This document shows positions 2,405 through 63,191 of a stretch of DNA of 64,000 nucleotides, piece by piece (the first letter of the stretch is position 1; each line of letters begins with the position of its first letter). The stretch lies in the NCBI GenBank assembly GCA_903895845.1, contig CAITVK010000121.1, positions 34,980-98,979 on the forward strand, read 5' to 3'. The notes beneath the pieces are model-generated. The model saw only the letters and a list, made by a program, of their open reading frames with translations, was not told the origin of the DNA and did no database searches. The stretch is from an uncultured Chitinophagaceae bacterium (lineage in GTDB: Bacteria; Bacteroidota; Bacteroidia; Chitinophagales; Chitinophagaceae). Made by a program: the position numbers and the translations under genes.

Positions 2405-2733
2405 GAAGCTATTTTTCGTTGAGACGCAAATCTAAGTATAAAGTTTAGTAGTGTATCCAAGACATTTAACGGGGAGAGGAGGTTGAAAATAATAGTTTCT
2501 ATTAATCAGAATATAAAGACTAATGTTGCTGAACAGAGCAGTAAAGAAAAGTCTCGCTCCACACAGATAGACATTCGGCATTCGTTTCATTTCCATAAAT
2601 CTTCTTGTATTATAAGGCAAGAAATTCTAAGCTACCAAACATCAATTTACAGATAGTCAATCATTCATTCAGCAAGTACACTCAGCCCAAAAGCGTTTAG
2701 CATTGTTTCGCTATGCTTTTGATTTGATTTAGA

Positions 2734-2985
2734 GATAAATAAAAAGATTTGCTATAACACGAGTTCTCGTGGCAGGGCAAATTCGAAGATTCGTTGTAAC
2801 ACGAGTTCTTGCGACAGGGCAAATTCGAAGATTTACTATAACACGAGTTCTCGTGGTAGGACAAATTTGAAGATTCATTGTAACACGAGTTCTTGCGACA
2901 GGGCAAATTTGAAGATTCACTGTGACACGAGTTCTCGTGACAGGGCAAATTCGAAGATTCATCGTAACACGAGTGTCGGTGTTGG
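2734..2985. repeat. 21-bp-period tandem array A (12 units, alternating taacacgagttctcgtggcag / ggcaaattcgaagattcgttg, 42-bp higher-order repeat)
   Basis: Unit starts by eye: 2734, 2755, 2776, 2797, 2818, 2839, 2860, 2881, 2902, 2923, 2944, 2965, all exactly 21 bp apart. Edge units are more diverged. Confidence 0.95.
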
Positions 2986-3041
2986 TACAAATACATTTAA
3001 TATTATCAAAATTAGTATAATCATTCTTTAAAACAATAAAA

Positions 3042-4001: not shown

Positions 4002-4009
4002 GTAGTGCT

Positions 4010-4080
4010 GAGTGATGAGTTATAAGTGATGAGTTAGCCGCGCCTAAACTTATAACTCATCACTTATAACTTATCACTTG
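4010..4080. terminator. Inverted repeat of agtgatgagttataagtgatgagtta / taactcatcacttataacttatcact between convergent genes
   Basis: Complementary arms around gccgcgcct; overlaps the stop codon of the minus-strand GH105 gene. Confidence 0.6.
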
Positions 4081-13866: not shown

Positions 13867-14081
13867 GACTATTATTTTTAAATGTGTGAAAAATTGTGTT
13901 TTGCGCGGCGAAGGTAAAGAATAGTTATGAGTTATGAGTTATGAAATATGAGTGAAGCCAAAGACAGGTTAATGATTAACGATTATTGATTAATAGAAAA
14001 GGCTGTAACAAAGTATAACCTTCATCACAGCCTCTTTTTTATTAGCAATGGAGAGATCAATCATTACCAAACGTTAATCAT

Positions 14082-14747
14082 TTATACGATTACTGCACTA
14101 AAATAGGCACCCCAAGGGCCATATCCGCCTTTTTTAGTTACCCAACGGGCAAAGAAATAAACCGTTTTCCCTTTTTGAGACAATAGATAAGTAATGGGAC
14201 TACCCGATTTGGCGATGTTTATTTTCAGGTTCATATCCCCCAATCCCATTGGGGCAGGGTCGTCTATTTTATACCACATCTCCATAAAGCCAACGCCTTT
14301 TGGCTTGCCTATTTTGCCGGTAGCTGCGTTAGTCATATTTACAATCTGTTGCAAAGGTGCGCCATACGTAATGTTTACCCTTGGTGCCGTAGTTGGGTCG
14401 GGCACGGGTGTGCGTGCAGAACCAAACAAATGGATGCCCATTGCCAACTTGTCGGCAGCAGATATAGCCGCATTGTTTATTAGGTAGTCGTCGAACACCA
14501 ATGCTAAGGCGGGTTGAAACAATAACTGATTGGCGTCGCGGTTGACAGTAGCGGTCTGGTTTTTTGTAAGTTTATTTACAGATGCAGCCCAAAGCGGTGT
14601 CCAGGCGGTTTGATAAGCAACAATGGCATTCACTTCCAGGAGTGTCATGCCCCAACTGGCTACTCCTTTGGCAATGATAAGTGCCAATACTACAATTTGT
14701 AACTGGTTGAACTTTGACGGTAATGAAGGTATACTATAAATTTCCAT
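14082..14747 (-). CDS. Hypothetical protein, 221 aa (apparent diverged paralogue of 43817-44485)
   Basis: ORF with AWTPLWAASVNKLTK... and C-terminal GKTVYFFARWVTKKGGYGPWGAYFSAVIV resembling the 43817 protein. Confidence 0.75.
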   Translation of the reverse strand: MEIYSIPSLPSKFNQLQIVVLALIIAKGVASWGMTLLEVNAIVAYQTAWTPLWAASVNKLTKNQTATVNRDANQLLFQPALALVFDDYLINNAAISAADKLAMGIHLFGSARTPVPDPTTAPRVNITYGAPLQQIVNMTNAATGKIGKPKGVGFMEMWYKIDDPAPMGLGDMNLKINIAKSGSPITYLLSQKGKTVYFFARWVTKKGGYGPWGAYFSAVIV

Positions 14748-15002
14748 GACAAGCGTTAGAAACCAGTTTTAGTTAGCAAGTTTCTGCACTAAAGGTCAAT
14801 GATTGCATTCGTAACTGCCAAATCTATTTTCCAAAAAAAGAGGCAAAAAGTCATAGTGATTTATAATCATATCTGTAATGAAGGCTAGTATCAATGAGTT
14901 GCGTTTTTTGGTGCCTCCAAACTTTAACATTTGACGGTTGAGTTTTGCTGGGATAAAAGGGGTAATTATTAATAAAAAACAAAAAAGACTTTTTCAACAG
15001 CG

Positions 15003-15147
15003 CATTATTCAAGCATTCCACGTCATTATTTAAGCTTAATTAATGACGCAACAAGCTTGAATAATGACGCAACAAGCATGAATAATCACCCGTAATGCTT
15101 GAATAATGACGTGGAATGCTTGAATAATGGCACAAAAAGGCACATTT
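15003..15147. repeat. 21-bp-period tandem array B (atgacgcaacaagcttgaata-like units) with an inverted first unit
   Basis: Direct units at 15043, 15064, 15085, 15106 (plus a decayed one at 15127). 15003-15030 is the perfect 28-bp reverse complement of 15102-15129. Confidence 0.92.
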
Positions 15148-15279
15148 AGGTGGGTTTTTGACAATGGCAGGTTTGTAACTGGCGTGTTTTTGGGGGATTT
15201 TAGGGCATTTATTGGTAATAATGCAAGGATTTGACAACTTTTGGACAGTTTTATAATCTAATTGGGACAACTGCACAGT

Positions 15280-23636: not shown

Positions 23637-23752
23637 TTTAAGTTGTAAGTCGTAAGTGGTAAGTTGTAAGTCGTAAGTAAAGGCAGTTATAAGTTTTAAG
23701 TAATAGGTTATACGTTAGCAAAAAATCATTGAATCATTCAAAATATTCAATC

Positions 23753-24136: not shown

Positions 24137-24214
24137 GAGGAAGTAGTAGGTAATAAGTTATAGTTTGTACGTTCTTTAGATGTAAAAAATAGAGATTTAG
24201 TGATTGCGGACTTT

Positions 24215-24382
24215 CCCCTTTTCTTTGGGGGACACCCCCTTTTCCTTCGGGGGCATCCCCTTTTTCTCTGGGGGTATCCGCAATTTGTTGGGGGGCACCC
24301 GCAATGTTCTTGGGGACATCCCCTTTTCTCTGGGGGGCATCCCCTTTTGTTTGGGGGACAACCGCAAATAGCTTAGGGACAA
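24215..24382. repeat. 21-bp-period tandem array C (ccccttttctttgggggacac / ccgcaatttgttggggggcac subtypes), 8 units
   Basis: Unit starts 24215, 24236, 24257, 24278, 24299, 24320, 24341, 24362. Confidence 0.95.
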
Positions 24383-32190: not shown

Positions 32191-32206
32191 AGGGGAGTTT
32201 GTCCTC

Positions 32207-32416
32207 AATAAGTGGTCACTTATTCATAATAAGCACCTTCTTTTTTTCAATAAGGACTCACTTATTACAAATAAACGAGTTCTTATTCGGAATAAGTGAG
32301 TCCTTTTTTTCAATAAGTGACAACTTATCGCAAATAAGTGGTTACATATTCATAATAAGTGACCACTATCTTTCAGTAAGTTGTCACTTATTGGAAGAAA
32401 GTACTCACTAAAAATG
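32207..32416. repeat. 21-bp-period tandem array D (aataagtggtcacttattcat-like), 10 units
   Basis: Unit starts 32207, 32228, 32249, 32270, 32291, 32312, 32333, 32354, 32375, 32396. Confidence 0.95.
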
Positions 32417-36018: not shown

Positions 36019-36186
36019 TCCCGCAAAGATTTCCGTACAACCCTAATTGTTTGACGGCATACCCTTAAGGAATAAGGGTGAACCCACAACAATATTTGGT
36101 ATACCCGGAACAATTTATGGTGTACCCAGAACAATATTTGGTGTACCCAAAGTTGTTACGGGTGTACCCGGAAGAAAATTGGGTAA
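36019..36186. repeat. 21-bp-period tandem array E (acccacaacaatatttggtat-like, ACCC...GGGT units), 8 units
   Basis: Unit starts 36019, 36040, 36061, 36082, 36103, 36124, 36145, 36166. Confidence 0.93.
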
Positions 36187-40982: not shown

Positions 40983-41073
40983 TCCATGTTACAAGTTACT
41001 CGAAATAAGGATTTATAACTAATAACTAATAACTAATAACTAATAACTAATAACTAATAACTAATAACTAATA
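40983..41073. repeat. Heptanucleotide microsatellite (ctaataa)n overlapping the 3' end of fabD
   Basis: Uninterrupted taactaataactaataact... about 10 copies; the fabD stop lies in the first unit. Confidence 0.9.
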
Positions 41074-41951
41074 ATCACTGCTTCCCTGTAAATCTTCTGC
41101 ACCAATCCTTGCAACACTTTTCCTGGACCCACTTCCGTAAAGTTGATTGCACCATCTGCCACCATTGCTTCCACGCTTTGTGTCCAACGCACAGCCCCTG
41201 TCAACTGAGCTTCCAGATTTTGTTTTATCTCCATCGGGTCAGTCACTGCTTTTGCAACTACGTTCTGATAAACAGGACAAGTTGGTGTATTAAAAGTTGT
41301 TGCTGCAATAGCTGCTGCCAGTTCTTCTTTGGCACTCGCCATCAACGGACTATGAAATGCACCACCAACAGGCAATACCAACGCACGTTTAGCACCAGCC
41401 GCTTTCATTCGCTCACAAGCGATGTTGATGCCCGCTACCGATCCACTTATCACCAGTTGTCCCGGGCAATTATAGTTAGCTGCTACTACTGTCTCACCCG
41501 TTTCAGCTTGTATTTCAGCACATATTTTCTCTACTGTTTCGTCTGCCAATGCCAATACTGCTGCCATCGTACCAGGAACTATTTCGCAAGCTTTCTGCAT
41601 GGCATTTGCACGGATGCTCACCAGTTTCAACGCGTCTTCAAAGCTCAATGTGTTGTTTGCCACCAATGCCGAAAACTCGCCCAAAGAATGTCCTGCCACC
41701 ATATCAGGCTTGGCATCAGACAATGTTTTATAAGCAATTACAGAGTGAATAAAGATGGCAGGTTGCGTCACATTCGTCTGTTTCAACTGCTCATCAGTCC
41801 CTTCAAACATAATGTCGCTGATTCTAAAACCTAGTATTTCATTAGCCTTTTCAAACAGTTCCTTAGCTGTTTCATTGCCATCGTACAGGCTTTTGCCCAT
41901 CCCACTAAACTGCGATCCCTGACCCGGAAATATAAAAGCGTGTTTACTCAT
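41061..41951 (-). CDS. fabD: Malonyl-CoA ACP transacylase
   Basis: FIFPGQGSQFSGMGKSLYD, GHSLGEFSALVA, FHSPLM. Confidence 0.95.
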   Translation of the reverse strand: MSKHAFIFPGQGSQFSGMGKSLYDGNETAKELFEKANEILGFRISDIMFEGTDEQLKQTNVTQPAIFIHSVIAYKTLSDAKPDMVAGHSLGEFSALVANNTLSFEDALKLVSIRANAMQKACEIVPGTMAAVLALADETVEKICAEIQAETGETVVAANYNCPGQLVISGSVAGINIACERMKAAGAKRALVLPVGGAFHSPLMASAKEELAAAIAATTFNTPTCPVYQNVVAKAVTDPMEIKQNLEAQLTGAVRWTQSVEAMVADGAINFTEVGPGKVLQGLVQKIYREAVIISY

Positions 41952-43261: not shown

Positions 43262-43558
43262 TTTTTATCTCCTTTCGTGTAATCATTTTTTAATTGAGGT
43301 AATCTTTCCGACATCTCTACACAAATTAACACCATCCTCCCCACCCACCAAAAAACTATTTAAAATATAATTAGGTTATGTGAAACTTTTCTTTGAACCT
43401 TCACCAGAATTAAATAACAAAATAACCACCAACACCACAAAACGATGCTTTATGAATACAATTTCTTCATACAAATTTCTCCGCTGCAATGCTAGAAATA
43501 GCTGCTACTCAACAGCAGTACTGGTTACACAGCTTCAAAAGGATGGTTGATGGATTTA

Positions 43559-43768
43559 TTTTCTATTTATTTGAATATCGAAATAAAAGTTTTGAATATT
43601 CAAATAAAATATTCGGTGCATCAAATAAAATAGCTGACACACCAAATAAAATAATTGGTACACCAAATAAAAAATCTGACGCACCAAATAAAATAGTTGA
43701 TGTGTCAAATAAAACATTCGGTACACCAAATAAAGTATTCGACACACCAAATTTCTTGAAAAAGAAAG
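43559..43768. repeat. 21-bp-period tandem array F (caaataaaatattcggtgcat-like), 7 clear units plus decayed/inverted edges
   Basis: Unit starts 43580, 43601, 43622, 43643, 43664, 43685, 43706, 43727 (43748 decayed). Confidence 0.95.
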
Positions 43769-43816
43769 GGAATGGAAAATTCCACAATCATTTATTAATT
43801 TTTTAAACTCAAAAAT

Positions 43817-44485
43817 ATGTCTCACAACGAAGCACGTTTCCCTACAAAGGATGATGATAAAAACAATTATTACAACACGGTAATACCATATATAAACCTA
43901 CCGGCCAACCAAACTAGGTTTAATACACCTGCTACTGTGCTTACGGCACTGAATGCCAAGTACGCACTCTGGACACCCAATTGGACAAAGTTGAATGATA
44001 CCGATTTGTGTACGCACAATGTAGTTGAGTTGAAGAACACATTGGAAGTGGAAATTGATGGCATTCTTGATGCTGTTTATGGGGATATTCCCGATTCTGT
44101 TTTGACAGCTGTCGATATGTCTAAATTTTTAATTTTTGCTCGTAAATTGGCAAGTGCAGCTGTGGTTTCGTCTGTTGCACCGGGTTTTGCCCTAGATACA
44201 ATTGGGCATTTGTGGGCAATATTTCATTTCACCAATACCGCTTCGCCTAGCAGCAAAGAAGCACCCGTTGGTAATTTTATTTTCTTCGAAACATACGTTG
44301 GTGCAGCAGGCATTGCCGATGCCGATGTGCCTTTTGCCAATGGAAATGTGACTTCTGCAGCTAGTCATACCTTTCATTTTGTGAATGGGCAAGTAGGAAA
44401 AACTTGTTATGTGCATTGCTATTATCAAATTAAAAATGGCAACCGTAGCCCCGAAAGCGTAATCATTAGTTTTGTGATTAATTAA
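43817..44485 (+). CDS. Hypothetical protein, 222 aa (apparent diverged paralogue of 14082-14747)
   Basis: WTPNWTKLN...GKTCYVHCYYQIKNGNRSPESVIISFVIN; starts about 70 bp after array F. Confidence 0.75.
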   Translation: MSHNEARFPTKDDDKNNYYNTVIPYINLPANQTRFNTPATVLTALNAKYALWTPNWTKLNDTDLCTHNVVELKNTLEVEIDGILDAVYGDIPDSVLTAVDMSKFLIFARKLASAAVVSSVAPGFALDTIGHLWAIFHFTNTASPSSKEAPVGNFIFFETYVGAAGIADADVPFANGNVTSAASHTFHFVNGQVGKTCYVHCYYQIKNGNRSPESVIISFVIN

Positions 44486-44558: not shown

Positions 44559-44713
44559 TATTGCTGAACTTATTACTTACTACTTACAACTTACGACTTA
44601 TGCCTTACGAAATCATTTGAGTTAGTATCGCAAAACAATAAAATGCAGGTTTATACTTGCTACTAATTCATTTTCCATTAATTTCACGCCGCAAAAAAGA
44701 TAATCTAAATTAT

Positions 44714-51383: not shown

Positions 51384-51593
51384 CATCACTTAATTGAAAT
51401 AAGTGATGAAGTATTTGACTTTTTTGATCAAGTTTTCCAAAAACTTAATCAAGTATTCAGTTTTTTTGATGAAGTTTCTTAATTACTTGATGAAGAAAAA
51501 GGTTTTCTTGATGAAGTTTTTCAATTACTTGATCAAGTTTTACAATTAAGTGATGATATTTTCCAATTACTTGATGAAGTTTTTGGGGTTCGT
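51384..51593. repeat. 21-bp-period tandem array G (gatgaagtttttcaattactt-like), 9 direct units plus an inverted first unit
   Basis: Unit starts 51405, 51426, 51447, 51468, 51489, 51510, 51531, 51552, 51573; 51374-51392 and 51400-51418 are 19-bp perfect inverted arms. Confidence 0.95.
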
Positions 51594-56678: not shown

Positions 56679-56846
56679 GTCACGTGTGACAGGTTTTCTG
56701 TCACAGGTTACGATATTTCTGTCACAGGTTACCAACATTCTGTAACCTGTGAAAATATTTCTGTCACAGGTTACCAACTTCTTGTAACCTGTGCAATATT
56801 TCCTGTAACCTGTGACAAGAAGTTGGTAACCTGTGACGGAACAAAT
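56679..56846. repeat. 21-bp-period tandem array H (gtcacaggttac / gtaacctgtgac core in both orientations), 8 units
   Basis: Unit starts 56679, 56700, 56721, 56742, 56763, 56784, 56805, 56826; 56763-56785 is the perfect reverse complement of 56815-56837. Confidence 0.96.
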
Positions 56847-60929: not shown

Positions 60930-61012
60930 AATAGTTATGAGTTATGAGTTATGAATGATAAGCTATAAGTAATTTATTTCACTCATAACTCATAATTCAT
61001 AACTTATAACTA
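60930..61012. repeat. Intergenic (TTATGAG)n inverted repeat between kdgK and kduI
   Basis: agttatgagttatgagttatgaatgataagctataag ... actcataactcataattcataacttataact. Confidence 0.8.
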
Positions 61013-61840: not shown

Positions 61841-61847
61841 TTTAATT

Positions 61848-61960
61848 AGTTATGAGTTATAAAATATGAGTTATGAACTTAATTATGAGTTATGAAATAT
61901 GAATGATGAGTAATCTGTTATGTTCTAAAACTCATAACTCATCATTCATAACTCATAACT
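61848..61960. repeat. Intergenic (TTATGAG)n inverted repeat between kduI and kduD
   Basis: agttatgagttataaaatatgagttatgaac ... aactcataactcatcattcataactcataact. Confidence 0.8.
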
Positions 61961-63063: not shown

Positions 63064-63150
63064 TGGCGTGCCCCGAGGCGGGTCGGGCTTTCCGTTCCAA
63101 TCTTTTTGCCAAGCAGCAAAAAGGATTTCCACTTCAATCCCTCACGCAAT
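63064..63150. repeat. Dispersed intergenic element gcgtgccccgaggcgggtcgggctttccgttccaatctttttgc...gcaaaaaggatttccacttcaatccctcacgca
   Basis: Contains hairpin ctttttgc/gcaaaaag; matches a sequence type I recall from intergenic regions of many Bacteroidota (not searched). Confidence 0.6.
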
Positions 63151-63191
63151 GTGCGAATAGACTGTATTACTGAATAAGATTGGTTTGCAAA

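Follow-up and report, generated by a model that had tools for sequence, protein, structure and literature searches.

Regulatory DNA is normally recognised through conserved letters. Iterons are direct repeats of about 20 bp that lie on one face of the DNA, like other phased protein-site arrays; they mark origins, and their sequence is maintained for a cognate initiator. CRISPR arrays display a regular spacing and a constant plus a variable part, an arrangement also recognisable in some of the arrays considered below (CAAATAAA plus 13 nt). Palindromic intergenic units, sometimes in tandem, are typical of REP, REPIN and BIME elements (REPINs: PMC3116915), while abundant short intergenic tandem repeats have been described as the heptamer repeats of cyanobacteria (STRR) and of Beggiatoaceae (TAACTGA; PMC4679880).

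The DNA analysed here (the window) is a stretch of 64,000 nucleotides from an uncultured Chitinophagaceae bacterium, in which tandem arrays with a period of 21 bp, or in one case 42 bp, are found (Table 1). The interpretation tentatively put forward is that of a patchily distributed, conserved module, in which the regulatory DNA would inherit a 21-bp period and self-complementarity, not a sequence, and in which proteins with predicted four-helix and Fn3-like domains would act on the array.

Table 1. Arrays, genes and other elements of the window.
Feature	Position	Strand	Remarks
Period-42 array	2744..2974	.	12 two-state columns, all transitions
Second family member	14088..14747	-	G000:C121:49067-49726
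Period-21 array	14996..15150	.	upstream of gene 14088-14747; 14982-15139 is 93% identical to L022:11119-11276, flanks unrelated
Period-21 array	24214..24381	.	CCCC...GGGG units
Period-21 array	32205..32381	.	cores of units 1/8, 3/5, 6/9 mutual reverse complements
Period-21 array	36075..36185	.	GGGTGTACCC cores
Leader	43349..43451	+	conserved between species, upstream of small ORF; 75-80% identity with L047/L048 over leader and ORF
32-aa ORF	43452..43550	+	MNTISSYKFLRCNARNSCYSTAVLVTQLQKDG; stop just before array F; peptide conserved in G004, G006, G007, G009, G010
Array F	43580..43752	.	about eight 21-bp units, between 32-aa ORF and 222-aa gene
222-aa gene	43817..44485	+	predicted four-helix N domain and Fn3-like C domain
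Period-21 array	51420..51583	.	inside 381-bp segment 51246-51626, 95% identical to L034:19047-19427
Period-21 array	56695..56802	.	core GTCACAGGTTAC in both orientations
7-bp tandem repeats	4004-4079, 13923-13953, 23639-23678, 41015-41074, 44568-44610, 60933-61011, 61846-61960		ATAACTC/ATAACTT type, intergenic
Flavo-1 RNA	63077-63162	-	Rfam RF01705, 59.6 bits

The purine-pyrimidine pattern of array F

The core of array F (43601-43747) is composed of seven clear, gapless 21-bp units, each starting with CAAATAAA. A sequence-only reading of this DNA had maintained that positions 13-21 of these units always read YYRRYRYRY and that the eight variable columns among them show transitions only, and both statements were confirmed: the pattern is present in 7/7 units, column 15 is invariant, and columns 13, 14 and 16-21, together with column 9, vary by transitions only. 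Over all 21 columns, nine are two-state (9/9 transitions) and two are three-state (columns 10 and 12, transversions included); in the unit directly preceding the seven (GAAATAAAAGTTTTGAATATT) the pattern is already broken.

The average over 49 arrays of this and related genomes is 201 transitions in 372 two-state columns (0.54), against which the 9/9 of array F gives p = 0.004 for this array alone and p of about 0.2 after correction for the 49 arrays; array F stands out in transitions, but not once the number of arrays looked at is corrected for. In a larger set of 71 arrays the fraction is 0.52, and in orthologous DNA flanking arrays it is 0.49-0.57, that is, the transition fraction of the arrays is that of the background flanking DNA. 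The fraction is heterogeneous between arrays beyond expectation (p = 4e-4), with array F at the high end together with the period-42 array (window 2718-3006; 12/12 two-state columns), which is the more extreme of the two. In the other arrays, taken column by column, transition-only columns are not commoner among dyad-paired columns (68/214) than elsewhere (43/132), so that neither this test nor the background-like transition fraction upholds the pattern as a general feature. A concentration of transitions in stems was likewise rejected, since the unbiased column test shows none; the apparent excess arose because the positions had been picked by the fold itself.

Relatives breaking the pattern had been named beforehand as the outcome contrary to it, and such breaks do occur. 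In the sister species G002, F-type arrays are present at four loci (L167-L170); the closest homologue of array F (L060/L167) carries YYRRYRYRY in 5/5 units, and the three others in 3/6, 1/5 and 1/3 (counted from the printed units), so that only 10/19 units keep the pattern, 5/9 of the failures consisting of an A at position 13 only. These homologous arrays lead to the rejection of a strict rule: YYRRYRYRY is a tendency of F-type arrays, and may be a by-product of self-complementary units and ordinary transition bias.

The self-complementarity attributed to the pattern, on the other hand, is real, array F folding with a z of -8.6 on the minus strand, G.U pairs included, and of -4.3 on the plus strand. 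Of the structural constraint that had been suggested, this part stands and is general, 71 arrays of family genes folding better than their column-permuted selves (median z -2.8, p = 5e-16; permutation of the 21 columns preserves repeats and composition), whereas the constraint on purines and pyrimidines as such is not supported.

A gene family preceded by arrays

The gene 64 bp downstream of array F encodes a protein of 222 residues whose predicted structure has two parts: an N-terminal four-helix domain at residues 12-104, for which pLDDT is mostly above 80, and an Fn3-like beta domain that is less certain. Foldseek gave no match with E below 0.001 and Pfam, NCBIfam, PHROGs and PADLOC no family; no DNA-binding fold was recognised by family searches or in the predicted structure, and tblastn against plasmids was negative. 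A profile built from nine members detects 13 in this genome, and matches in one sister species number up to about 30; the family is present in 11/13 genomes of the genus, in 4/60 of the order and in 3/296 of the phylum (this genome being counted in the latter two), and is therefore widely scattered but rare.

Among the members examined first, 25/31 are preceded by an array at the strict threshold, compared to 27/323 genes generally (Fisher p = 1.5e-18), a comparison set which contains some family members; these 27 genes of this genome (G000) have a period-21 array within 400 bp upstream, and the control periods 19, 20, 22 and 23 yield only 0-2 of the 323. In 60 further members, picked by coordinates alone with the upstream DNA not looked at, the top lag among 8-63 is 21, 42 or 63 in 54/60, and 44/60 pass the strict threshold. 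The array lies at a median of 100 bp before the ATG and has a median length of 190 bp; of the roughly 90 members examined in all, most keep an array of like spacing, place and length. All five members of G225 and G319, both listed as phylum-only relatives, carry an array, and the link is also found in G042, G055 and G070, which belong to other families of the order. Genomes devoid of the family are mostly devoid of arrays: none is found in 79 kb of G005 and G008, which belong to the same genus, and two, one of them in apparent coding sequence, in about 390 kb of other such genomes (small samples); G012, with a family fragment only, has four (small sample).

What is kept along this association is not the sequence of the units. 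In G004, G006, G007 and G010 conservation extends to both the 32-aa ORF and the gene, and the array between them has the 21-bp period, with units unrelated to those of array F; a like turnover is seen at a second family member (L009 vs L073). Unit sequence, in other words, changes completely between species, and the place of the array is kept. Arrays share the exact 21-base spacing and self-complementarity and almost no sequence; it is therefore spacing, not letters, that is conserved. As to the surrounding elements, the 32-aa peptide ends in ...TQLQKDG, and at L032:6752 a short ORF ending in SELQEDG directly precedes an array with no family gene; in the upstream regions of L108 and L110 the arrays are preceded by a conserved leader that may contain a short ORF (LRNPMTVSLSPAS), conceivably a remote variant of the 32-aa ORF, and in L122, L124 and L103 a hairpin followed by a T run, resembling an intrinsic terminator (by eye only), lies between array and gene start. 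The promoter motif TAnnTTTG is not enriched in the gap, in the array or in the 200 bp upstream.

In 527 kb of this genome, scanned at lags 5-69 and 84, the dominant lags are 21, 42, 63 and 84; no arrays occur at 10, 11, 31, 32, 52 or 53, and the other lags are separate 7-bp repeats or, in some cases, lie one to a few bases off (20, 40, 41, 60, 62). Comparison between arrays shows mostly unrelated units, a few copied types excepted. The segment shared with L034 (Table 1) spans the array and the N-terminal codons of two otherwise different genes, which begin MIINKIKTKKCCYGLLMLLV and MVINKIKTRKCCYGLLMLLV, a configuration that joint copying of upstream region and signal peptide would produce. Arrays also precede housekeeping genes of this genome (chorismate synthase, ilvD and others, named by eye from sequence) and genes for other helical plus beta proteins (likeness judged by eye), the latter in this genome as well as in G225 and G319.

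Possible modes of action

With a helical repeat of 10.5 bp, no whole number of bases below 21 completes an integral number of turns. Whole turns of B-DNA thus need multiples of 21, which would account for the presence of 21, 42, 63 and 84 and the absence of 10, 11, 31 and 32; assuming this pitch, the spacing of the units is integral. On these grounds array F may, tentatively, be viewed as a double-stranded DNA element with its units on one helix face, upstream of a small-protein gene. Array F would then be the cis half of a module whose two parts are a tandem array, with about nine units of 21 bp that often have dyad symmetry, and a gene behind it for a four-helix plus Fn3-like protein. The array would act as double-stranded DNA, with all units facing the same way and 42, 63 and 84 as the allowed multiples, and could be a platform for the side-by-side assembly of an oligomeric protein (conceivably what the neighbouring gene itself encodes, or else a shared partner) which in turn controls that gene; within an array, the units would be homogenised by slippage and unequal exchange even as their sequence drifts. 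This proposal brings together the family association in scattered members of the phylum, the exact period, self-complementarity, the turnover of units at a conserved place, the dispersal of arrays and the lack of a coding signal. Against it count the lack of a recognised DNA-binding fold in the 222-aa protein, the arrays before housekeeping genes and the lack of any excess of a 10.5-bp signal inside units, by which intrinsic phased curvature is also rejected; moreover, a sequence-reading protein would have to co-evolve in order to keep up with such turnover, and plain DNA symmetry would not predict that the antisense strand folds better in 45/71 arrays (p = 0.011).

The latter advantage, small as it is, would fit an array working as RNA, one strand being transcribed into tandem hairpins with a regulatory or scaffolding role, and tolerance of G.U pairs would then give rise to the purine-pyrimidine pattern. 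Most arrays fold strongly, and the minus strand of array F does so far better than the plus strand, using G.U pairs. The better-folding strand, however, differs from array to array (the sense one in 26/71), L101, L102, L108, L074 and L123 hardly fold at all, covariation between arms of neighbouring units is limited to scattered weak signals over many axes, with a weak within-array permutation test, and single hairpins do not account for an exact 21 and its multiples. At the array F locus Rfam returns nothing at the gathering score (a sub-threshold match over 43452-43588 has 15.7 vs 50 bits), and array F is not recognised as a known structured RNA. An RNA function is unlikely, yet it is a serious rival, and the same holds for a selfish or neutral minisatellite, to which we assign a rather low probability, generated by slippage or template switching with a 21-bp quantum in upstream regions of the family that are merely tolerant or act as source. 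The lack of relationship between unit sequences, the presence of copied array types at unrelated loci lacking the family gene, arrays preceding unrelated genes and cores flipped as template switching predicts (L049, TTACCAA/TTGGTAA; likewise the arrays at 56695 and 32205) all agree with such an origin; what it leaves unexplained is why, even in distant members of the phylum, arrays of a defined length stay beside one family at a defined distance, and no slippage process advancing by a fixed quantum of 21 bp is known to us.

That each paralogue or its partner binds its own array type, copies elsewhere marking its regulon, appears improbable: several paralogues per genome do have distinct array types, some of which recur (window 14996 and L022; F type at four G002 loci), but the protein has no recognised DNA-binding fold, the F type occurs only once in this genome, and the F-type arrays of G002 reside on contigs lacking a family gene. 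Translation of the array into a coiled-coil heptad repeat, 21 bp being seven codons (7 x 3), is already disfavoured and has very little probability left. One sense frame runs open through array F (ORF 43489-43806), and an open sense frame was found in 23/27 first arrays vs 15.7 expected (p = 0.0006); a further 44 arrays did not bear this result out (21 open vs 23.3 expected, that is, at chance), variation is even over codon positions (112/126/119, with no third-position excess), and the frame relative to gene and start codons is inconsistent, and coding heptads were accordingly rejected.

The arrays make it possible to ask directly if spacing and symmetry, instead of sequence, are what a cell reads. 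Ordinary motif and homology searches are blind to elements of this kind, which also open a way into an unannotated protein family (13 members in this genome).

Comparison with described repeat systems

A search of open-licence papers retrieved no description of such an array-gene module; novelty concerns this module, not the purine-pyrimidine pattern, and rests on the lack of a matching description in the libraries searched. With respect to CRISPR, whose repeats of about 23-50 bp are separated by unique spacers, the 21-bp unit, which is the total period, is too short, and most arrays have no constant repeat. REP elements form one genome-wide sequence family, whereas the arrays share no common sequence or palindromic family, their units being mutually unrelated except for the few copied types, and have a fixed 21-bp period and a fixed place upstream of the gene family. 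Iterons differ in keeping their sequence; the arrays have no kept sequence and are placed upstream of a gene family. The ATAACTC/T-type 7-bp arrays of this genome do resemble the heptamer repeats of Beggiatoaceae (PMC4679880), but array F, with a lag-7 identity of 0.31 and a period of 21, does not belong with them: STRR and TAACTGA repeats share one 7-bp sequence, while the arrays described here have a period of 21, each its own sequence, and are tied to one family.
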